Below are positions 1,712 to 9,953 of a DNA stretch of 60,079 bases, piece by piece. Position 1 is the first letter of the stretch; every line of letters starts with the position of its first letter. The notes under the pieces were generated by a model. That model was not told the DNA's origin, searched no databases, and saw only the letters and a list, made by a program, of their open reading frames with translations. Both the position numbers and the translations under genes were made by a program. The DNA lies in the NCBI GenBank assembly GCA_012735575.1, contig JAAYGY010000053.1, positions 1 through 60,079 on the forward strand, written 5' to 3'. The DNA is from Clostridiales bacterium. Lineage in GTDB: Bacteria; Bacillota; Clostridia; Caldicoprobacterales; UBA3941.

Positions 1712-1951
1712 TTATAATGGTTCCACTATAATCCTGGAAGCTTCTTCACTACGAAGGGCTATAACAGCGCCACGGAAAAAATAAGCAACAGGATCTCCAG
1801 AAGGGCTTCTATTTATGGCCTGCACCTTTGTACCCTTAATTAGGCCTAAATCCAGCATTCTTCGCCTGGTATTTCCTGCCGCAGTCAATTCTTTAACCTT
1901 TGCACAGCTTCCTAGGGGCAACAAATTTAACGGTATATATCTTTCAGACAT
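1712..1951 (-). CDS. feoA: FeoA, small SH3-like partner of FeoB
   Basis: This 79-residue cytoplasmic protein matches the usual FeoA length (75-85) and pattern: an N-terminal strand followed by the G-SCAKVKEL and RRRMLDLGL segments, and a C-terminal strand with IALRSEEASRI. FeoA proteins are beta-barrel accessory factors for FeoB. The start ATG at 1951 has AGGAGG 7 nt upstream. It is the first gene of a minus-strand feoAB operon and is divergent from the metalloregulator gene at 2073, with 121 bp between the two starts holding a DtxR/MntR-like box. Confidence 0.95.
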   Translation of the reverse strand: MSERYIPLNLLPLGSCAKVKELTAAGNTRRRMLDLGLIKGTKVQAINRSPSGDPVAYFFRGAVIALRSEEASRIIVEPL

Positions 1952-2017
1952 ATTAATCCTCCTAAAAAGTCATATTCCTGGTTCAATTTCTCATAGATTT
2001 AGTTATGACCAAAAGAG

Positions 2018-2031
2018 TTACCTAAGGCTAA
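2018..2031. promoter_or_regulatory. Candidate MntR/DtxR-type box between feoA and the regulator gene
   Basis: On the minus strand this reads TTAGCCTTAGGTAA, an imperfect palindrome. It resembles the core GCCTTAAGG of Bacillus MntR boxes with one base fewer at the centre. It lies in the divergent spacer and abuts TATATT, a plausible minus-strand -10 for feoA (TTGAAC 19 nt upstream). The position suits metal-dependent repression of both directions. This is inference from sequence similarity only. Confidence 0.4.
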
Positions 2032-2072
2032 TATATGAAAAGAGCAGTAATTGTGTTCAAGGCGGTGAAAAA

Positions 2073-2555
2073 ATGGGCAAGGCTGATAAAGAATTTCATA
2101 CCTTCAGGGGATATCAATTGCTAAAAAAAGACACAGCACATCTAACTCCCAGCATGGAAGACTATTTAGAAATGATATATAGATATTGCAAGGATGAAGG
2201 ATACATTCGTATCTATCAAATTTCCCAGCTATTAAATGTTCAGGCTCCCTCGGCTACCAGAAATGTACAGAAATTAGCAGATATGGGTTTGGTGGACTAT
2301 GAAAAATACGGGATTATAAAACTTACAGAAGAAGGTGAAAAAATAGGTCAGTTTCTTCTGGAGCGTCATATGCTGATAGAAAGTTTTCTTAGCAAAATAG
2401 GAATAAGTACTACCCTACTAAAGGATACAGAGATGATTGAACACAATATAAGCATGGAAGCACTTGAAAATATAGAGATGTTCAATGATTTTCTGGAAAA
2501 CAATCCGGATATAATAAAGAGGTTTCAAGAATATAAAAAAAACCGAGAGTGCTAA
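2073..2555 (+). CDS. MntR/DtxR-family metal-dependent transcriptional regulator
   Basis: A 160-residue repressor-type protein with an N-terminal winged helix (about 25-85; recognition segment QAPSATRNVQKL) and a helical metal-binding/dimerisation domain. The residues equivalent to the B. subtilis MntR metal site (D8, E11, H77, E99, E102, H103) are visible as D30, E33, H99, E120, E123 and H124. It therefore resembles MntR rather than the longer DtxR/IdeR, and it lacks the SH3 domain. The open frame extends upstream to 1815 but there runs antisense through feoA; the ATG at 2073, with GGCGGTG just upstream, is the credible start. A 22-residue N-terminal extension precedes the usual MntR start. 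Divergence from feoAB suggests it senses Fe(II) or Mn(II) and controls iron uptake. Confidence 0.9.
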   Translation: MGKADKEFHTFRGYQLLKKDTAHLTPSMEDYLEMIYRYCKDEGYIRIYQISQLLNVQAPSATRNVQKLADMGLVDYEKYGIIKLTEEGEKIGQFLLERHMLIESFLSKIGISTTLLKDTEMIEHNISMEALENIEMFNDFLENNPDIIKRFQEYKKNREC

Positions 2556-2575
2556 AACTCTCGGCTTATTTTATT
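2535..2575. terminator. Bidirectional terminator between regulator gene and cysK
   Basis: Inverted repeat CCGAGAGT (2543-2550) / ACTCTCGG (2557-2564) with a 6-nt loop. An A-tract lies before it and a T-rich tract after it, so it can end both convergent transcripts. It overlaps the last codons of the regulator gene. Confidence 0.85.
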
Positions 2576-3512
2576 CCTGATTTGGAAATAATAAGGGGTT
2601 TGATAGATATCGCTCGCCTGTATCTGGCAGCAATACTACTATCCTCTTACCCTTATACTCTGGCCTTTTTGCTACTTGAGCTGCAGCATGAGCGGCTGCA
2701 CCTGAAGATATACCTACCAGTAATCCTTCAGTGCTAGCTAGTTTTCTGGAAGCTGCAACTGCCTCTTCATTCTTTACCTGTACTATCTCATCTACAATAT
2801 CGAGATTTAACACATCAGGTACAAATCCGGCACCAATTCCCTGAATAGCATGAGGGCCAGCATTACCACCTGACAGAACAGGTGAGTCCGTAGGTTCTAC
2901 TGCTATAATCTTTATATTGGGATTTCTTTGCTTTAGTACTTCGCCCACTCCTGTAATGGTACCACCTGTACCTACTCCTCCTACAAATACATCTATATTT
3001 CCATCGGTATCTCTCCAAATCTCTTCAGCAGTTGTCGCTCTGTGTATTTGGGGATTTGCAGGATTTTGGAACTGTTGTGGTATAAAGGAATTAGGATTTT
3101 CCTTTGCCAATTCCTCTGCCTTTTTTATTGCTCCCTTCATGCCCTCTGAACCGGGAGTTAATACCAGCTCCGCACCATAGGCTTTGATAAGACTTCTCCG
3201 CTCTTTGCTCATGGTATCAGGCATAACTATAATCAGCCTGTAGCCTAAAGATGCTGCTACAAAAGACAGGGCGATACCAGTATTTCCACTTGTAGGCTCA
3301 ATAATAACAGTATCCTGGTTTATCAAGCCTTTTTCCTGAGCATCCTTTATCATGGCATAACCTATTCTGTCCTTTACACTGCCAGCAGGGTTAAAATATT
3401 CTAGTTTTGCTACTAAAGGGGTCTCTAATCCTTCACTATTACTAAAGTTTGAAATCTCCAACAAAGGTGTATTGCCTATTAAATCCGTTAACTTTTTTGC
3501 TATCCTTGCCAT
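2571..3512 (-). CDS. cysK: Cysteine synthase A (O-acetylserine thiol-lyase)
   Basis: This PLP enzyme converts O-acetylserine and sulfide to cysteine. The 313-residue length is normal for CysK. Visible motifs are GNTPLLEI near residue 13, GSVKDR with the PLP lysine K47, PTSGNTG (phosphate/substrate loop, about 73-79), GTGGTITG near 182-189 and SSGAAAHAA near 268. The ATG at 3512 has AGGAGTG upstream. The gene is 57 bp downstream of the Rrf2-family gene called cymR, so the two likely form an operon. In Bacillus and Staphylococcus, CysK is also the co-repressor partner of CymR, which makes the pairing functionally meaningful. Confidence 0.95.
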
Positions 3513-3569
3513 ACTCTACACTCCTTCTTCTTTAATCTTTTATTATAGGGCTTTATATTTTTTTCCCTA

Positions 3570-4013
3570 TTAAATATAATACATGTGTATCCAGCTATTA
3601 CTCAGCTTTTGGTATTCTATAACCAGATCTTTAAGGGTTATTGAATTTGCAACTTCATTCAAGCTTTGGTTCATCTTTTCCCAAACTCTTGTCTTTACAC
3701 AGTATTCTATGCTCTTTTTACTGACTTCTTGCTCATCCTCGTCTACCACATTTAGATCTCCTTCCAAGGCTCTAAGTACATCACCTACAGTAATGCTTGC
3801 AGCGTCCTCAGCAAGAATATATCCACCTTGAGCACCCTTTATACTTTTAACCAGTCCCGCCTTGCGTAAAACAGAAAATACCTGCTCCATATATCCTAAG
3901 GATAGATCCTGCCGCTCTGCGATACTACTAAGTGGTATAGGACTATCCGCAGAATGAACCGCCAAATCTACCATAGCTCTTAGGCCATATTTACCCTTGG
4001 TTGAAATTCTCAT
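3570..4013 (-). CDS. cymR: Rrf2-family repressor, probable CymR (cysteine metabolism)
   Basis: A 147-residue Rrf2 protein with an N-terminal winged helix: ISTKGKYGLRAMVDLA at residues 3-18, the helix-turn-helix around LGYMEQVFSVLRKAGLVKS, and the wing GAQGGYILA. IscR- and NsrR-type members carry three clustered Cys ligands. Here only C105 is present, which fits the cluster-free CymR branch. CymR represses sulfur-assimilation genes when cysteine is plentiful, in complex with CysK. The neighbouring cysK supports the call. The start ATG at 4013 has GGAGTG 8 nt upstream. The exact sub-family is an inference. Confidence 0.8.
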   Translation of the reverse strand: MRISTKGKYGLRAMVDLAVHSADSPIPLSSIAERQDLSLGYMEQVFSVLRKAGLVKSIKGAQGGYILAEDAASITVGDVLRALEGDLNVVDEDEQEVSKKSIEYCVKTRVWEKMNQSLNEVANSITLKDLVIEYQKLSNSWIHMYYI

Positions 4014-4109: not shown

Positions 4110-4155
4110 CAAAATTAAAAAAGAGACAGCCTAATTTAAGCAATTAGGCTGTCTC
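4110..4155 (-). terminator. Terminator after hydE
   Basis: A perfect 14-bp inverted repeat GAGACAGCCTAATT (4123-4136) / AATTAGGCTGTCTC (4142-4155) with a 5-nt loop. On the minus strand it is followed by a T-rich tract. It overlaps the last codons of hydE and ends the hyd operon. Confidence 0.85.
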
Positions 4156-5182
4156 CTCTTCCCATGTCTACTTTCATGCCGGTAGAGTTGATCCTCTTCT
4201 CTATACACATTCTACAATGGGCCGATTCATCTCCTGTGCAAATCTTGTTGTCATAGAGTTGGTACTTGCTTTTGGTAGCTATTGGGGACAGGTTGGGCAT
4301 TACTACATTAGCACCCGCCATTAATGCCTTCTCCCTGCCCCTGGGATCTAATGTTCCCATGGCCGTTGTGGCTGGCAATAGGCTTTCAGGGATCATTAGC
4401 CTGGTCAAGGCCAACATTACCAGTACATCTTCGACCCTGCCTGCCTTCTCCTTGGCTAAAGGGGTGCTATTAGCCGGTATGAAAGGACCAATTCCAATCA
4501 TATGGGGCTTTAGTTCTTTTAAAAAGTACAGATCTTCTACCAGGTCATAATGGCTTTGTCCAGGAAGGCCAACCATGAAGCCTGCTCCTACCTGATATCC
4601 AATTTCTCTTAGATTATATAAACATTGTCTCCGATTATCAAAATCACCATCAGGATGAAGCTTTTCATAGAGATTTCTGGAGGCTGTCTCATGGCGCAGC
4701 AGATAACGATCTGCCCCTGCTTCATACCAAAGCTTGTATTCCTCATAACTTCTTTCCCCCAGGGACAAGGTTACTGCAACATCGGGAAATAATTCCTTGA
4801 TGGAGGATACCAAATCTGCTACCTTTGATGCTGTATACCACCTATCCTCGCCACTTTGCAGTACAAAAGTCCTGTAACCCAGTTCATAACCTTCCTTGCA
4901 GCAAGATAATATTTCATCTTTACTTAACCTATACCTATCCACGTTTTCATTTGCAGCTCTAATTCCACAATAAATACAGTTCCTACTGCAAATATTGGAA
5001 AACTCTATTAATCCCCTCATGAAAACCTTGTTTTCATAATATTTAGATCTAATCTTACGGGCACAATCAAAAAGCTGTTCCCTGGATCCTTCATCCAGGT
5101 TTTCCAGAAGGTAAATCATGTCATATTTTGGTATATAGTTTTCATTGTATAATTGACTTAGAATACCCTGTATCCTACTCAT
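4136..5182 (-). CDS. hydE: [FeFe]-hydrogenase maturase HydE (radical SAM)
   Basis: HydE is a radical-SAM enzyme acting in assembly of the H-cluster 2Fe subsite; it works on the complex-B-type Fe precursor made by HydG. The 348-residue length is typical. The radical-SAM motif CSRNCIYC gives C65, C69 and C72, and a C-terminal Cys set at C315, C323 and C326 has the same spacing as the accessory cluster site of Thermotoga HydE. The ATG at 5182 has AAGGAG upstream. It is the last gene of hydF-hydG-hydE, separated from hydG by an unusual 192-bp gap. BioB is the main alternative, but the C-terminal Cys set and the neighbours exclude it. Confidence 0.95.
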   Translation of the reverse strand: MSRIQGILSQLYNENYIPKYDMIYLLENLDEGSREQLFDCARKIRSKYYENKVFMRGLIEFSNICSRNCIYCGIRAANENVDRYRLSKDEILSCCKEGYELGYRTFVLQSGEDRWYTASKVADLVSSIKELFPDVAVTLSLGERSYEEYKLWYEAGADRYLLRHETASRNLYEKLHPDGDFDNRRQCLYNLREIGYQVGAGFMVGLPGQSHYDLVEDLYFLKELKPHMIGIGPFIPANSTPLAKEKAGRVEDVLVMLALTRLMIPESLLPATTAMGTLDPRGREKALMAGANVVMPNLSPIATKSKYQLYDNKICTGDESAHCRMCIEKRINSTGMKVDMGRGDSLIA

Positions 5183-5374: not shown

Positions 5375-6778
5375 TTATATAAATAAGTCACGCTCTCCCT
5401 TCTGGATTCTGGCAAGTCTATTTATGGTCTCTGCCCTCATCTTGTCATCTGGAATATTGGCCAGATTCTTTTCAATTACCTTGTTTCCTAGCTCTTTCAG
5501 CTCTTGGTCACCATAGTCCTCTATATATTCCTTGAAAGTCATCATGGCATTGGGGTAGCAAAGATCATGGATTCTTCCACTCTTGGCAAACTCCATAAAG
5601 CGGTCCCCCGTCCTTCCCGCCCTATAGCATGCGGTACAAAAACTAGGTAAATAACCTTGCTTACATAGGGATTTTATTACATCAAGAGGATGTCGGTCAT
5701 CAGCTATGGCAAATTGGGATGTATCCCTTTCTTCCTCCTCCTGCTTCTTGTAACCTCCAACTCCTGTAGAGGATCCCGCACTTATCTGGGATACTCCAAG
5801 TTTTATAACTTCCTCCCTAAAGCTGGGCTCTTCCCGAGTTGATAGAATAATGCCCGTATATGGAACTGCCAGCCTTAAAATTGCAACAATCCGCTTAAAA
5901 TCCTCATCGGATACCAGATGGGGATAATTATCTATGTTCACATCCTGAGCCGGTCTTAATCTTGGAACTGATATGGTGTGGGGTCCTACGCCAAATTTTT
6001 CCTCTAAATGTTGTGCATGAAGTAGTAGTCCCAGCACTTCAAATTTAAAATCATAGAGGCCAAACAATACGCCTATACCCACATCATCTATGCCGCCTTC
6101 CATTGCCCTGTCCATTGCGGTAGTATGATAATCATAATCGCTCTTAGGTCCGGCAGGATGCATTTTTTCATAGGTTTCCCTATGATAGGTCTCCTGAAAC
6201 AGTATATATGTCCCTATTCCTGCCTCTTTAAGCCTTTTGTAGTTTTCTACAGTGGTTGCTGCAATATTTACATTTATGCGTCTTATGCTATCCTTGCCCA
6301 GCTTAGTATTATAGATAACATCCATTGCATGAAGGATATACTCAATAGGACAGCTTTTATCATCTTCCCCCGCCTCCAGGGCGATCCTCTTATGCCCCAG
6401 GCTTAGTATTATTTCAGCTTCCCTACGTATTTCATCGTCGGCTAATTTTTTTCTTTCAATACCGCTGGTACATTTATAACCACAATATACACAGCTGTTT
6501 ACACAATAATTGGATACGTATAGGGGGGCAAACATAACAATCCTGCTTCCATAAATGGTTTCCTTTATCTCCCTGGCAGCCTTAAATAGCCTTTCATCTA
6601 TCTCTTTATTAGTATTGTTAAGCAAAGCAGCTGCTTCTTCCAGGCTTATACCCTTTGCCTGCCTTGCTTTTTCTATTATCTGATTAAGCTCCTCTACACT
6701 CCTGTTTTTGGCTGCCTCCAATGTATCATATATGAACTTTTCATCAATAAAATCGGCTCTTTCCATAGTTTTACTCAT
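5375..6778 (-). CDS. hydG: [FeFe]-hydrogenase maturase HydG (tyrosine lyase, CO/CN- synthase)
   Basis: HydG cleaves tyrosine by radical-SAM chemistry and yields the CO and cyanide ligands of the H-cluster on an auxiliary Fe-S cluster. The 467-residue length is normal. The radical-SAM motif CVNSCVYC gives C92, C96 and C99. The HydG-specific C-terminal pattern C-x2-C-x22-C (CTAC ... DLC) is present and distinguishes it from ThiH. The ATG at 6778 overlaps the 3' end of hydF by 8 nt, with AGGGGA 6 nt upstream, indicating translational coupling. Confidence 0.97.
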   Translation of the reverse strand: MSKTMERADFIDEKFIYDTLEAAKNRSVEELNQIIEKARQAKGISLEEAAALLNNTNKEIDERLFKAAREIKETIYGSRIVMFAPLYVSNYCVNSCVYCGYKCTSGIERKKLADDEIRREAEIILSLGHKRIALEAGEDDKSCPIEYILHAMDVIYNTKLGKDSIRRINVNIAATTVENYKRLKEAGIGTYILFQETYHRETYEKMHPAGPKSDYDYHTTAMDRAMEGGIDDVGIGVLFGLYDFKFEVLGLLLHAQHLEEKFGVGPHTISVPRLRPAQDVNIDNYPHLVSDEDFKRIVAILRLAVPYTGIILSTREEPSFREEVIKLGVSQISAGSSTGVGGYKKQEEEERDTSQFAIADDRHPLDVIKSLCKQGYLPSFCTACYRAGRTGDRFMEFAKSGRIHDLCYPNAMMTFKEYIEDYGDQELKELGNKVIEKNLANIPDDKMRAETINRLARIQKGERDLFI

Positions 6779-7994
6779 CTTTATTCCCCTCTCTAAAAAT
6801 CTCTGTAACCCTGTCTAGAATACCCTGCAGATATGCAATTAGCACGCCATAATTGACCATAGGAACCTTTGATTCCACCGCTCTTTCTATGCGGTGCTCC
6901 ATGGCCTTTGGGTTTAACATACAGGCTCCACAATGAATAACCAAAGCATATTTATCTAATTTCTCTGGAAAATCCCCTCCGCTTGTAAATTCAAAAATTA
7001 TATCTTTGCCGGTTTTCTCCCTTATCCAGCGAGGGATTTTCACCCGCCCAATATCCTCGTCCTGCCTATGATGGGTACAGGCCTCAGCAACCAGAACCAT
7101 ATCCCCGTCCTTTAGATTCTGAACAGAATATGCGCCCTTTATCATTTCATCCAAATCTCCCTTGTATCTGGCAAAGAGAATGGAAAAAGAGGTCAGGGGG
7201 ATATCCTGAGGAACAAGCTTTGATACCTGTTTAAAGACCTGGGAGTCTGTAATTACCAGTTGAGGTTTTTGACCTAGGTTTTTCAGGGTCTGTGAAAGCG
7301 TAAACTCCCTGGTAACCACTGCCGTTATTCCATGGTCTAAAAGTTCCCTTATAACCTGCTGCTGAGGTAGTATTAGCCGCCCCTTTGGGGCTGATTCATC
7401 TATGGGCACTACCAGTACCACCATATCCTCTGGCTTTAGCAAATCAGCTACAATCTTCTTTTCCTTCTTTATAGGTCTGGCGGTGGAGATCAAAGCCTTT
7501 TTTAACTCCTCAATACCTTGACAGTTTGACGCAGATACAGGAATACAGGAAATCTTTAATTGACTTTCAATTCCACTAACTTCTTTAAAAGGCACCTTGG
7601 CAAGATCAGTTTTGTTTATTGCCCCTACCACAGGTATCCCCTTTTTCTGGATCTGATCCACTATATCCCTTTCAAAATCCGTTAACCCTTCTGTTGCATC
7701 AATAACCACTATGGCCAGTTCTGTCCTGTTAAGTACATCCAGAGTCTTTTTCTTGCGAAGCTCTCCCAGCTCTCCACTATCATCCAAGCCTGCAGTATCT
7801 ATTAACACTACTGGACCTATGGGTAAAAGCTCCATTGATTTATAGACTGGATCAGTAGTAGTTCCCTTTATGGACGATACAGTAGCAATCTCCTGTCCGG
7901 TAATGGCGTTTATCAAACTGGATTTTCCTGCGTTTCGTCTACCAAATATAGCAATATGCAGTCTTTCAGATCTAGGTGTTTTAAGCAAGCTCAC
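6771..7994 (-). CDS. hydF: [FeFe]-hydrogenase maturation GTPase HydF
   Basis: HydF is the scaffold GTPase that carries the 2Fe precursor to HydA. The open frame begins with an ATG at 8027, but no SD precedes it. A GTG at 7994 sits behind AAAGGGAAG and gives the family-typical opening MSLLKTPRSERLHIAIFGRR, so I use it (407 aa). The P-loop GRRNAGKSS covers about residues 18-26. The C-terminal cluster ligands CTHH and HCGAC give C306, H308, C355 and C358, matching the CxH...HCxxC signature. It is the first gene of hydF-hydG-hydE. Expression appears controlled by a Rex-like operator and a leader terminator. Confidence 0.95.
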   Translation of the reverse strand: MSLLKTPRSERLHIAIFGRRNAGKSSLINAITGQEIATVSSIKGTTTDPVYKSMELLPIGPVVLIDTAGLDDSGELGELRKKKTLDVLNRTELAIVVIDATEGLTDFERDIVDQIQKKGIPVVGAINKTDLAKVPFKEVSGIESQLKISCIPVSASNCQGIEELKKALISTARPIKKEKKIVADLLKPEDMVVLVVPIDESAPKGRLILPQQQVIRELLDHGITAVVTREFTLSQTLKNLGQKPQLVITDSQVFKQVSKLVPQDIPLTSFSILFARYKGDLDEMIKGAYSVQNLKDGDMVLVAEACTHHRQDEDIGRVKIPRWIREKTGKDIIFEFTSGGDFPEKLDKYALVIHCGACMLNPKAMEHRIERAVESKVPMVNYGVLIAYLQGILDRVTEIFREGNKDE

Positions 7995-8052
7995 GTTTTT
8001 CCACTTCCCTTTCCATTCCTTTATCATGAATTGGATCCAGGTCTTCCAAAAT

Positions 8053-8084
8053 AAAAAAACCCCTTCCTGATAGAAAGGAAAGGG
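8053..8084 (-). terminator. Leader terminator (attenuator) upstream of hydF
   Basis: On the minus strand the stem CCCTTTCC (8077-8084) pairs with GGAAGGGG (8060-8067) and is followed by seven Ts (8053-8059). It lies between the hydF promoter and its GTG start, so it can only act on the hydF transcript itself. Part of its 5' arm and loop (8072-8081) can instead pair with leader bases 8145-8154. Confidence 0.75.
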
Positions 8085-8216
8085 TATATATTAACGTATA
8101 TGTATACTGTATGTATCAAGCTCATACATATATAAATACCACAGTTTCCTCTCTCTCAGGGTCTTAGCCCCTCAAGGTTAGAAACCTTATGAAATTAAAA
8201 CGTCGACCAAACGTTT
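8085..8216 (-). ncRNA. Structured 5' leader of hydFGE, candidate riboswitch or attenuator
   Basis: Downstream of the predicted start site near 8216 the minus-strand RNA can form several hairpins. These are AAACGT/ACGTTT (8198-8216), AAGGTT/AACCTT (8174-8188), GGG/CCC (8159-8170) and TGTATG/CATACA (8108-8128). The segment AGAGAGGAAA (8145-8154) is complementary, with one G-U pair, to UUUCCUUUCU (8072-8081) of the terminator, so antiterminated and terminated folds exclude each other. I do not recognise a known riboswitch class. The ligand, if any, is unknown, and a protein- or ribosome-dependent attenuator is also possible. Confidence 0.5.
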
Positions 8217-8251
8217 GTTAATATTATAACAAACTCTGATGCTAATTTCAA
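8215..8251 (-). promoter_or_regulatory. hydF promoter with overlapping Rex-like operator
   Basis: On the minus strand TTGAAA (8246-8251), a 17-nt spacer and TATAAT (8223-8228) form a near-consensus SigA promoter. The palindrome TTGTTAATATTATAACAA (8215-8232) spans the -10 and matches the clostridial Rex consensus TTGTTAANNNNTTAACAA at all but one defined position. Rex is the NADH/NAD+-sensing repressor of fermentation genes; redox control of hydrogenase maturation is the natural reading. Rex itself is not encoded in this window. Confidence 0.75.
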
Positions 8252-8292
8252 TAGGTATTTGTATATTTAATTGTATATTTTATTTAATTGCT

Positions 8293-8322
8293 TTGACAAG
8301 GATATACAAATAATAGTATAAT
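8293..8322 (+). promoter_or_regulatory. SigA promoter of the citrate synthase gene
   Basis: TTGACA (8293-8298) and TATAAT (8317-8322) are 18 nt apart. The resulting 5' leader to the start at 8580 is about 250 nt, pyrimidine-rich around 8385-8420, with only weak hairpins. No riboswitch was recognised and no ORF with an SD lies in it. Confidence 0.65.
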
Positions 8323-8579
8323 AAAATCCTATAGGGTAAAAACTTACAGTCATAAATATTTCCTAATATACATGTGCCAGCCTTCACTGCCCCTTGCGGT
8401 TCTTGCTTTTTCTTTTTTTTATTTATTCATTTTATCCTGAATAGAGACTTGTTCTTACTTTATATAATTAGAATCGCTGTCTATTATTTTAACCATACTG
8501 AAAACTCATGGTATGTTTTACTGTATGTTGTTAGATTTTATATAATTGTAAATAATTATAGTTATAGGAGGGAAGAAGA

Positions 8580-9953
8580 ATGTTCACAACTAATCCAAGT
8601 TATTCAGACATAACCCCTGAAATAATGGATTTGACGGAACTATGCTATAAAAACAGCAATATTGAGCCTTCATTGTATGAAAAGTACGATGTAAAACGAG
8701 GTTTGCGTGATCTTAGTGGAAAAGGTGTTGTTACAGGACTTACGGAAATCAGTGAAATTCAGTCCACCTCAGTAGATGAAACTGGAAAGAGTGTTCCCGG
8801 CAAAGGCAAATTATACTATCGTGGAATAGATGTTGAAGATATGATAAATGGCTCTATCGAAAAAGGTTATTTTTGCTATGAAGAAACAGCATATCTCCTC
8901 TTGTTTGGACAGTTACCAACCCGCAAGCAATTGGATGAGTTTACGGATATGCTGGCCTACTATCGTACCCTGCCTACAAATTTTGTCAGGGATATTATAC
9001 TAAAAGCACCTAGTGCCAATATGATGAATACCCTGGCTCGTAGCGTTTTGACCTTATATGCCTATGACGACAGAGCCGATGATATATCTGTTCCTAATGT
9101 GCTGCGGCAATGCATACAACTGATAGCCTTGTTCCCATGTCTCTCGGTATATGGCTATCAGGCTTACAGCCATTATCATGGAGGAAAGAGCTTGATCATT
9201 CATACACCAAAACCAGAGCTTTCCACAGCCGAGAATATACTTCGTATGCTGCGTCCTGATAAAAAGTATACACCCTTGGAAGCACGAATTTTGGACGTAG
9301 CCCTGGTGCTCCATGCTGAACATGGTGGTGGAAATAATTCTACCTTTACCACCCATGTAGTTTCATCCTCTGGTACGGATACATATTCTGCCATAGCCGC
9401 TTCCCTAGGCTCTCTTAAAGGTCCCAAGCATGGCGGCGCAAATATAAAGGTTATGCAAATGTTCGATGACATTAAAAGAAATGTATCCGACTGGTCCGAT
9501 GAAGATGCCTTGCGAAGTTATCTGACGGCTATCTTAGATAAAAAGGCTTTTGATAAATCCGGGTTAATATATGGAATGGGCCATGCTGTCTACTCCCTAT
9601 CTGATCCCAGGGCTGAGATCCTAAAAGGTATGGTAAAAAGATTAAGTGAGGAAAAGGGGTTAATTGATGAATATCAATTATATGCAAATGTGGAACGGAT
9701 AGCAGCTCAGTTAATTGCTGAAAAGCGAAGAATATATAAGGGTGTCAGTGCTAACGTGGATTTTTACAGCGGCTTTGTATACAGCATGTTGGGACTACCC
9801 ATAGAACTATACACTCCTATTTTTGCTGTGGCTCGTATTGCCGGCTGGAGTGCCCACCGCATTGAGGAATTAATCAACGGCGGTAAAATCATCCGACCAG
9901 CCTATATAAGCGTAAAGAAACGGGAAAAATATATATCCATAGATGAGCGATAA
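8580..9953 (+). CDS. Citrate synthase / 2-methylcitrate synthase family
   Basis: Condenses oxaloacetate with acetyl-CoA (or propionyl-CoA). At 457 residues it belongs to the longer clostridial form with an N-terminal extension of about 50 residues. The catalytic triad is intact: H248 in AEHGGGN, H335 in GMGHAVY and D394 in NVDFYSG, equivalent to pig H274, H320 and D375. AGGAGGG precedes the ATG at 8580. It is monocistronic, with its own promoter and terminator. In an anaerobe lacking a full TCA cycle it would feed glutamate synthesis, but no aconitase or isocitrate dehydrogenase lies nearby. Substrate preference cannot be read from the sequence. Confidence 0.93.
   Translation: MFTTNPSYSDITPEIMDLTELCYKNSNIEPSLYEKYDVKRGLRDLSGKGVVTGLTEISEIQSTSVDETGKSVPGKGKLYYRGIDVEDMINGSIEKGYFCYEETAYLLLFGQLPTRKQLDEFTDMLAYYRTLPTNFVRDIILKAPSANMMNTLARSVLTLYAYDDRADDISVPNVLRQCIQLIALFPCLSVYGYQAYSHYHGGKSLIIHTPKPELSTAENILRMLRPDKKYTPLEARILDVALVLHAEHGGGNNSTFTTHVVSSSGTDTYSAIAASLGSLKGPKHGGANIKVMQMFDDIKRNVSDWSDEDALRSYLTAILDKKAFDKSGLIYGMGHAVYSLSDPRAEILKGMVKRLSEEKGLIDEYQLYANVERIAAQLIAEKRRIYKGVSANVDFYSGFVYSMLGLPIELYTPIFAVARIAGWSAHRIEELINGGKIIRPAYISVKKREKYISIDER

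Follow-up and report, generated by a model that had tools for sequence, protein, structure and literature searches.

A Putative Transcription Attenuator Upstream of the H-Cluster Maturation Operon hydF-hydG-hydE in a Clostridiales Bacterium and Its Relatives

Introduction

In the PyrR attenuators of pyr operons (RF00515), a 5' hairpin competes with an antiterminator, and the antiterminator competes with a terminator. Transcription-terminating riboswitches are likewise organized as a sensor domain upstream of the genes linked to it, with a terminator and an antiterminator. Simpler elements are also known: the pan motif consists of simple hairpins in a repeated arrangement, which are suggested to bind a dimeric protein (PMC2864571). 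The published control of [FeFe]-hydrogenase genes that we encountered acts at initiation, via Rex; in a study of Rex, hydrogenase genes are targets of the clostridial Rex regulon, for which the consensus TTGTTAANNNNTTAACAA is given (PMC8457756).

Here, we describe the leader of the H-cluster maturation operon hydF-hydG-hydE in a 60,079-nucleotide stretch of DNA from a Clostridiales bacterium (referred to below as the window). Like the PyrR attenuators, this leader would operate through competition between a hairpin, an antiterminator, and a terminator, and in related leaders the gene of the candidate regulator, TM1266 (database name, "iron-only hydrogenase system regulator"), heads the operon; its genes, loops, and candidate regulator differ from those of the PyrR system. 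It resembles transcription-terminating riboswitches in having a putative sensor domain upstream of linked genes together with a terminator and an antiterminator, but it is a simple hairpin with no junction or pseudoknot and matches no Rfam family. Compared with the pan motif, simple hairpins in a repeated arrangement are shared, whereas the genes differ, purine internal loops take the place of bulged A residues, and there is no sign of a common origin. An operator-like sequence over the hydF -10 box recalls the Rex regulon; Rex acts on DNA at initiation, whereas the hairpin and terminator would constitute a second, post-initiation layer. We propose, with a probability of roughly 0.83, that the leader is a transcription attenuator of the operon and a member of a regulatory-RNA family not listed in Rfam 15, with a sensor hairpin and two mutually exclusive folds below a Rex-like operator.

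Results

The hydF leader contains a terminator and a competing antiterminator

Coordinates are those of the window, and features lie on the minus strand unless stated otherwise. The open reading frames downstream of the leader each score above the cut-off of their own NCBIfam equivalog profile and encode HydF (6771..8027; TIGR03918, E = 5.1e-176), HydG (5375..6778; TIGR03955, E = 7.8e-200), and HydE (4136..5182; TIGR03956, E = 2.6e-152). Because the HydF proteins of relatives start with M-S-L, translation of hydF probably begins at GTG 7994 and not at ATG 8027. Beside the operon, positions 1712-4013 hold feoA-, DtxR-like-regulator-, and cysteine-synthase-like genes, named by eye, and an Rrf2/CymR-type regulator, with iron and cysteine supply as the theme.

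The clear promoter that the original prediction had placed upstream of hydF is a sigma-70-type element (8223..8251) in which TTGAAA at 8251 is separated by a 17-nt spacer from a TATAAT ending at 8223, with 11 of the 12 consensus bases matched; transcription would start near 8216. On the plus strand, a divergent promoter (TTGACA-18-TATAAT, 8293-8322; 12/12 consensus bases) is followed by a leader of approximately 250 nt, within which a weak terminator-like site lies at 8386-8400, and then by a citrate-synthase-like open reading frame (8580-9953). The 164-nt hydF leader was more stably folded than 199 of 200 dinucleotide shuffles (z = -3.37). The antiterminator form is its structure of lowest predicted energy.

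An intrinsic terminator with a U tract, which had been predicted at 8053-8084, occupies 8050..8085 and consists of a 10-pair stem (8085-8059) with a 7-nt loop, followed by TTTTTTATTT. Between positions 7900 and 8700, three terminator-like sites were detected, compared with 0.1 expected from shuffles, and two of the three are the leader terminator hairpin. The complementarity of 8145-8154 to the terminator 5' arm and loop was likewise confirmed: 8154-8145 (AGAGAGGAAA) and 8081-8072 (UUUCCUUUCU) can form 10 pairs, one of them G-U, with a duplex energy of -12.7 kcal/mol. A conserved hairpin of 42 nt (8185-8144) contributes, from its 3' side, the 5' strand of this antiterminator (8145..8154), which overlaps the 3' side of both P1 and the middle helix; the 3' strand of the antiterminator (8072..8081) lies within the terminator 5' arm and loop. 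Judged by sequence, the hairpin with the terminator and the antiterminator are mutually exclusive folds. Between the putative sensor and the terminator is an AT-rich spacer hairpin (TATGTAT-GAGCTTG-ATACATA, 8110..8130), the sequence of which is not kept in other families when compared by eye.

As a control for this pairing, 43 terminators from the window and seven related loci were each paired with the GA strand of the window. All eight leader terminators paired at -9.4 kcal/mol or better. Among the 35 nonleader terminators, the best values were -12.8 and -8.9 kcal/mol, both from sites whose positions place them opposite leader terminators on the other strand, and the best of the remainder was -7.5 kcal/mol; only one of the 35, itself such an opposite strand, paired as well as the leader terminators.

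A conserved hairpin is found next to hydrogen- and formate-metabolism genes

The conserved hairpin, designated type 1 (8144..8185), comprises P1 (8185-8180/8149-8144), a 3x3 internal loop (8179-8177/8152-8150), a middle helix of 3 bp (8176-8174/8155-8153), a 1x2 internal loop (8173/8157-8156), and P2 (8172-8169/8161-8158). The common core reads GUUUCUAACCUYRAGGGG-n-CCCUGAGAGAGAGGAAAC, and its 3' side is nearly constant across leaders; HydF identity to the window protein was 56-65% for the nine leaders measured outside the window's family, f1.

When 61 genomes, including the window's own, were searched at the DNA level, the leader was matched in nine, always preceding hydF. Among 30 genomes of the order, a covariance model detected type 1 in nine, with E values below 1e-11. 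Matches in two further genomes of the 30-genome scan (E = 0.27 and 0.76), as well as an additional weak match in the window's own genome (E = 0.11), were judged to be due to chance, being located in or at coding DNA. Within f1 and family f2 of the same order, the hairpin was present in all nine genomes with HydF above the cut-off and in none of the four genomes without HydF. Eight matches, including Caldicoprobacter oshimai and C. algeriensis, came from a pattern scan of GTDB contigs. Across the class, scans matched 10 of 391 genomes (11 of 391 with a broader model). Additional scans matched 3 of 6 genomes in family f24 (two real), 4 of 398 in the phylum (one judged chance), and 3 of 63 in another class (two real); within the order to which G279 belongs, 3 of 58 genomes matched, and within that of G141, 1 of 67. 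Altogether, type 1 occurs in 17 genomes from eight families (f1, f2, f24, f47, f75, f93, f96, and f112), one of which is in another class, with divergent copies in the six families beyond f1 and f2. Conservation of the leader in relatives was thereby borne out, with the hairpin core kept across families. The hairpin was not found in whole-genome scans or in the hydF regions of G082, G108, G201, and G434 despite the presence of HydF. Weak matches at L018, L019, L020, L032, L033, L045, L096/L112, and L044:1444-1467 were judged chance and dropped on account of their location, either in or at coding DNA or away from any hydrogen gene.

All 17 type 1 hairpins adjoin genes of hydrogen or formate metabolism. 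The first gene is hydF in 11 genomes; five have aspA-hydF (G135, G279, G439, G435, and G141; AspA was profile-checked in two), and one, G157, whose genome is 61% complete, has a NuoE-NuoF-formate dehydrogenase operon. In vitro, the nitrogen of the H-cluster bridging ligand can come from aspartate ammonia-lyase, and aspA is often close to hyd genes (PMC11736057). For the G157 hairpin (L021), a trimeric [FeFe]-hydrogenase was considered as the downstream product and rejected, since profile searches gave NuoE, NuoF, and a formate-dehydrogenase-like protein. On the corresponding contig (C162, 1-7000; L040), type 1 and an imperfect terminator precede NuoE, NuoF, and a third, large protein, which is truncated by the contig end and in which a glutamate-synthase-small-subunit-like domain and a molybdopterin oxidoreductase domain were recognized.

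Covariation was analyzed in two alignments fitted to the hairpin structure, from which G009 was omitted, as it was from the 16 distinct leaders, because it shares an identical core with G022. In the 15-row alignment (A5), 96.8% of cells were paired and the covariation score was 0.163, compared with 0.105 in shuffles, with two-sided changes confined to P1. The 20-row alignment (A6) adds L097 and three hairpins found upstream of TM1266 genes, and includes one spurious row (L044:1444-1467); here, six pairs changed on both sides, compared with 2.4 in shuffles (0 of 500 as high), and much of this covariation comes from the TM1266-upstream hairpins, which are weak scorers (24.9, 14.7, and 14.2 bits). 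Inside type 1, the sole variation of the middle helix is C-G to U-G, and two other core pairings, namely, P1 and P2 only or CCUY with GAGG, fit type 1 about equally. We favor the form with P1, middle helix, and P2, since in the TM1266-upstream elements and in other leader types both strands of the middle helix are exchanged in a compensatory way; across the different leaders, this helix takes the variants CUY/GAG, CGY/GCG, UAY/GUA, AAA/UUU, AGA/UCU, and GCY/GGC, each complementary. A conserved putative sensor domain with compensatory changes, as expected of a riboswitch, was found, as was the covariation of the hairpin helices raised in the original prediction, in structure-fitted alignments of which A6 contains the one spurious row.

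Two alternative folds are kept in the type 1 leaders

An intrinsic terminator was found in all 16 distinct type 1 leaders (15 by script, with that of L097 placed by eye), 24-90 nt downstream of the hairpin in the 15 script-scored leaders; the L021 terminator is imperfect. The 3' strand of the hairpin can pair with the terminator 5' arm and loop in 16 of 16 leaders, over 10 to 15 pairs and at energies of -11.3 to -17.7 kcal/mol. At the level of sequence, both hallmarks of an attenuator, a leader terminator and a mutually exclusive antiterminator, are thus present throughout. Covariation between terminator and antiterminator had also been raised, and here the outcome was divided: the pairing is conserved, but overall covariation was not seen, with 2,865 of 10,000 permutations of swapped terminators as good as the leaders' own (3,153 of 10,000 for nine representatives). 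Own terminators are not preferred because both strands are conserved; both are visibly changed only in L097 (CAAGG with CCUUG), whose own terminator is the second best of nine for its hairpin.

The simplest reading of these folds is that a closed hairpin would lead to termination. The polarity is uncertain, because for 12 of the 16 leaders RNAfold assigns the lower energy to the hairpin-plus-terminator state, with a margin of 1 to 15 kcal/mol. A factor-free leader might therefore terminate, and the switch could run the opposite way, being turned on upon binding.

We also considered whether a translated leader peptide could drive attenuation, with the GAGAGAGAGG stretch as the ribosome-binding site of a short open reading frame. 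AGAGAGAGG does lie 5-6 nt ahead of GTG in the window or ATG in the Caldicoprobacter family, but the start codon is missing there in L016, L034, and L043, and the frames have no common codons by eye. No conserved short open reading frame with regulatory codons was seen in this reading by eye, and we regard the leader-peptide explanation as very improbable.

A Rex-like operator overlaps the hydF promoter

Absent from the original prediction is a Rex-like operator, TTGTTATAATATTAACAA (8215..8232), that overlaps the -10 box and matches TTGTTAANNNNTTAACAA at 13 of 14 positions, as would be expected of a Rex regulon promoter; an equal score was reached in 0 of 200 shuffles. Taking the best upstream site per leader, sites with at least 12 of 14 matches were found upstream of 12 of the 16 type 1 cores, including L023, where the site is 134 nt away from the core. 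No such operator was found in the two leaders from the other class (9/14, the same as shuffles). Rex, responding to NADH/NAD+, probably controls initiation separately, at this putative operator over the -10 box.

The recurrence of the operator could be taken to mean that Rex is the sole control, the conserved elements being a terminator or DNA operator alone that does no switching. We consider this improbable: the conserved hairpin sits downstream of the promoter, in each of the 16 leaders its 3' strand can pair with the terminator arm, and the compensatory helix changes indicate RNA. Attenuation of the transcript in addition to probable Rex control is the reading that we retain.

Related leaders precede TM1266

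The broader model gave a second match in G015 (E = 0.016), approximately 80 nt upstream of a TM1266 gene; because such scores are expected by chance in 391 genomes, the evidence from G015 lies in its place beside TM1266. Similar hairpins occupy the equivalent position in G006 and G009 (14.7 and 14.2 bits). Type 1-like hairpins (L104:377-417, L105:336-374, and L106:330-368) lie between TM1266 and a phosphatase-like gene, which was named by eye from its C-terminus. No terminator accompanies the hairpins before these lone TM1266 genes, and two near relatives, G018 and G022, lack the hairpins.

In genomes without type 1, the leaders of operons that begin with TM1266 also hold a terminator and conserved blocks. 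Type 2 was found in five genomes of family f4 (G025, G014, G026, G028, and G029; L114, L115, L116, L117, and L121); its terminator comes after a block conserved around UCGUGCUGAAGGC-AGGGUU-GUCCCGAGCAA-AAGGCG. Type 3 was found in G010, G013, and G016 (L118, L119, and L120), type 4 in G021, G438, and G023 (L113, L078, and L087), and type 6 in G008 and G017 (L079 and L081). Type 5 is a singleton (G049, L077 1200-1490) with a CCUGAGUUAAGAG hairpin and, by eye, a later terminator, and it precedes TM1266 and hydE-, hydG-, and hydF-like genes. In types 2, 3, 4, and 6, a terminator and a possible antiterminator that uses the 3' strand of the hairpin were present in 13 of 13 leaders (-8.3 to -18.5, without a matched control). 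A weak likeness upstream of TM1266 in G012 and G020 was seen by eye and not counted. TM1266 was absent from G019 and G027, which carry no weight because in these genomes the contig with hydF breaks off within the operon or where it begins.

Several of the TM1266-operon leaders share an order of elements consisting of P1, a purine loop, a short compensatorily changing helix, a second purine loop, and P2, which was written as a descriptor (CY, NAY, middle helix, RA, P2, NA, middle helix, RRA, AGG/GGA/GGG). The descriptors were written after inspection of these leaders, which is a real circularity, and the noncircular part is the predicted complementarity of six different middle helices. Of 50 loci scanned, the strict descriptor matched 21, namely, 15 of the 16 type 1 leaders, type 3, and the three hairpins upstream of TM1266, against two matches in six random windows and one chance match in the real window, and it missed L097 and types 2, 4, 5, and 6. 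A relaxed version matched types 4 and 6 (5 of 28 loci), with no match in ten random windows, and missed types 2, 3, and 5. Combined, the two gave one match in ten random windows and two chance matches elsewhere in the real window. When the middle-helix demand was removed, all 16 type 1 leaders and 11 of 11 other leaders matched, and the two strands of the middle helix proved complementary for 67 of 76 and for 26 of 28 alternative frames, compared with 3 of 10 elsewhere in the window. Types 2 and 5 matched no descriptor; type 2 resembles the architecture by eye.

TM1266 is a candidate sensor protein

The TM1266 protein of the window's genome has 80 residues with a beta-alpha-beta-beta-alpha-beta arrangement (AlphaFold2 pLDDT, 94) and matches both Thermotoga maritima TM1266 (2nzc) and the NikR sensor domain. 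The TM1266 family (TIGR03959/PF21699) has the NikR_C fold without the DNA-binding domain.

One explanation of the hairpin is that TM1266, with its own ligand or metal, binds it, promotes termination, and controls its own gene, in a PyrR-like logic. The missing DNA-binding domain is in keeping with this. So is the gene order: in 14 genomes, TM1266 directly follows a leader that holds a terminator (types 2-6, the type 5 terminator being placed by eye), and 13 of these genomes have hydF, or a hydF fragment below the cut-off in G029, within 4 kb on the same contig. The type 1-like hairpins ahead of lone TM1266 genes in G015, G006, and G009 point the same way, although the G015 match is a chance-level score for one genome in the 391-genome scan, and the lack of a terminator and the absence in near relatives count against them. 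A plain hairpin with two similar purine loops would also be the type of site that a symmetric protein dimer can read. On the other hand, TM1266 is present in 36 of 44 genomes scanned, some without a detected hairpin (for example, G007, G082, G108, G201, and G434), and so is not specific to these RNAs, and literature searches on TM1266 turned up no test of RNA binding, or of another mechanism for this protein, at the level of search listings.

In the other main explanation, the hairpin would directly bind a small molecule or metal, for instance, an H-cluster precursor or iron, with TM1266 merely a member of the same regulon. The very strong conservation of the type 1 3' strand and loops is in line with such a riboswitch, as are a feedback logic in which the closed hairpin leads to termination and the iron- and cysteine-like genes, named by eye, that adjoin the operon in the window. 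However, the loop sequences vary between types while the architecture is constant, the junctions and pseudoknots usual in aptamers are missing, and the antiterminator role alone could account for part of the 3' strand conservation. The location of TM1266 directly after the leader in types 2-6 is to be expected of a self-controlling RNA-binding attenuation protein and equally of a riboswitch-regulon member. We tentatively place TM1266 first as the sensor, with small-molecule binding close behind.

The leader matches no Rfam family

The remark in the original prediction that the leader does not resemble known riboswitch consensus sequences was upheld, in that no Rfam family reached its gathering score. 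Rfam 15 gave no such match in the whole window or in 12 loci comprising 10 further type 1 leaders and two TM1266-upstream hairpins; the sole match in 11 TM1266 loci was RNase P, elsewhere in the loci, and nine further leaders, type 2 among them, gave none at E values up to 1. Eleven of the 17 type 1 leaders, that of the window included, were covered by this comparison. Known riboswitches, T-box, PyrR, the L10 leader, and others remained below the gathering score in the window and loci tested, and the T-box was also absent from the list at E ≤ 10 for positions 7900-8500. The highest subthreshold match was the PyrR binding site, RF00515 (27.3 bits, E = 0.12; gathering score, 54).

Literature searches on hydrogenase maturation combined with riboswitch, attenuation, or RNA motif, and on TM1266, returned no report of such an RNA at the level of search listings. 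A large 2017 survey, which reportedly described 224 bacterial RNA motifs, was covered through Rfam only. In the main text of four structured-RNA and terminator surveys, there was no passage on hydF or hydrogenase (PMC11109978, PMC8632094, PMC2864571, and PMC2965389).

Discussion

The leader of hydF-hydG-hydE combines conservation, gene association, two mutually exclusive predicted pairings, and compensatory helix changes. The original prediction of a possible riboswitch or attenuator leader holds at the level of an attenuator, given the conserved core, the association with these genes, and the terminator and antiterminator that are kept; its riboswitch part is a candidate reading. We therefore describe the hydF leaders as a probable new family of a known class of device, the transcription attenuator, and do not claim riboswitch status.

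In the mechanism that we propose, the hairpin at 8185-8144, with its two purine-rich internal loops, would act as the sensor, and its 3' side (8154-8145) could pair alternatively with the terminator 5' arm and loop (8081-8072). With the hairpin held closed, the terminator would form and transcription would stop before hydF; with the hairpin open, the antiterminator would form and the operon would be transcribed. Initiation would be separately under Rex, according to NADH/NAD+, at the operator over the -10 box. We infer that something binds the hairpin and that binding switches the operon off. A tentative extension is that TM1266 acts as an attenuation protein by binding RNA. It would be a NikR sensor domain whose DNA-binding part was lost or was never there, and it would read hairpins with two purine loops at fixed spacing in the leaders of types 1, 3, 4, and 6 (perhaps 2) and so gate the H-cluster assembly operon and its own gene by metal or cofactor state.

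A number of these leaders are conserved yet have no counterpart in Rfam 15. If it is shared, the RNA architecture before hydF, aspA-hydF, and TM1266-first operons would represent a second, post-initiation layer of control. The hairpin offers a concrete candidate binding site with which to ask what signal governs H-cluster assembly and what role TM1266 plays, and it may provide a handle on hydrogen production in thermophiles such as Caldicoprobacter.
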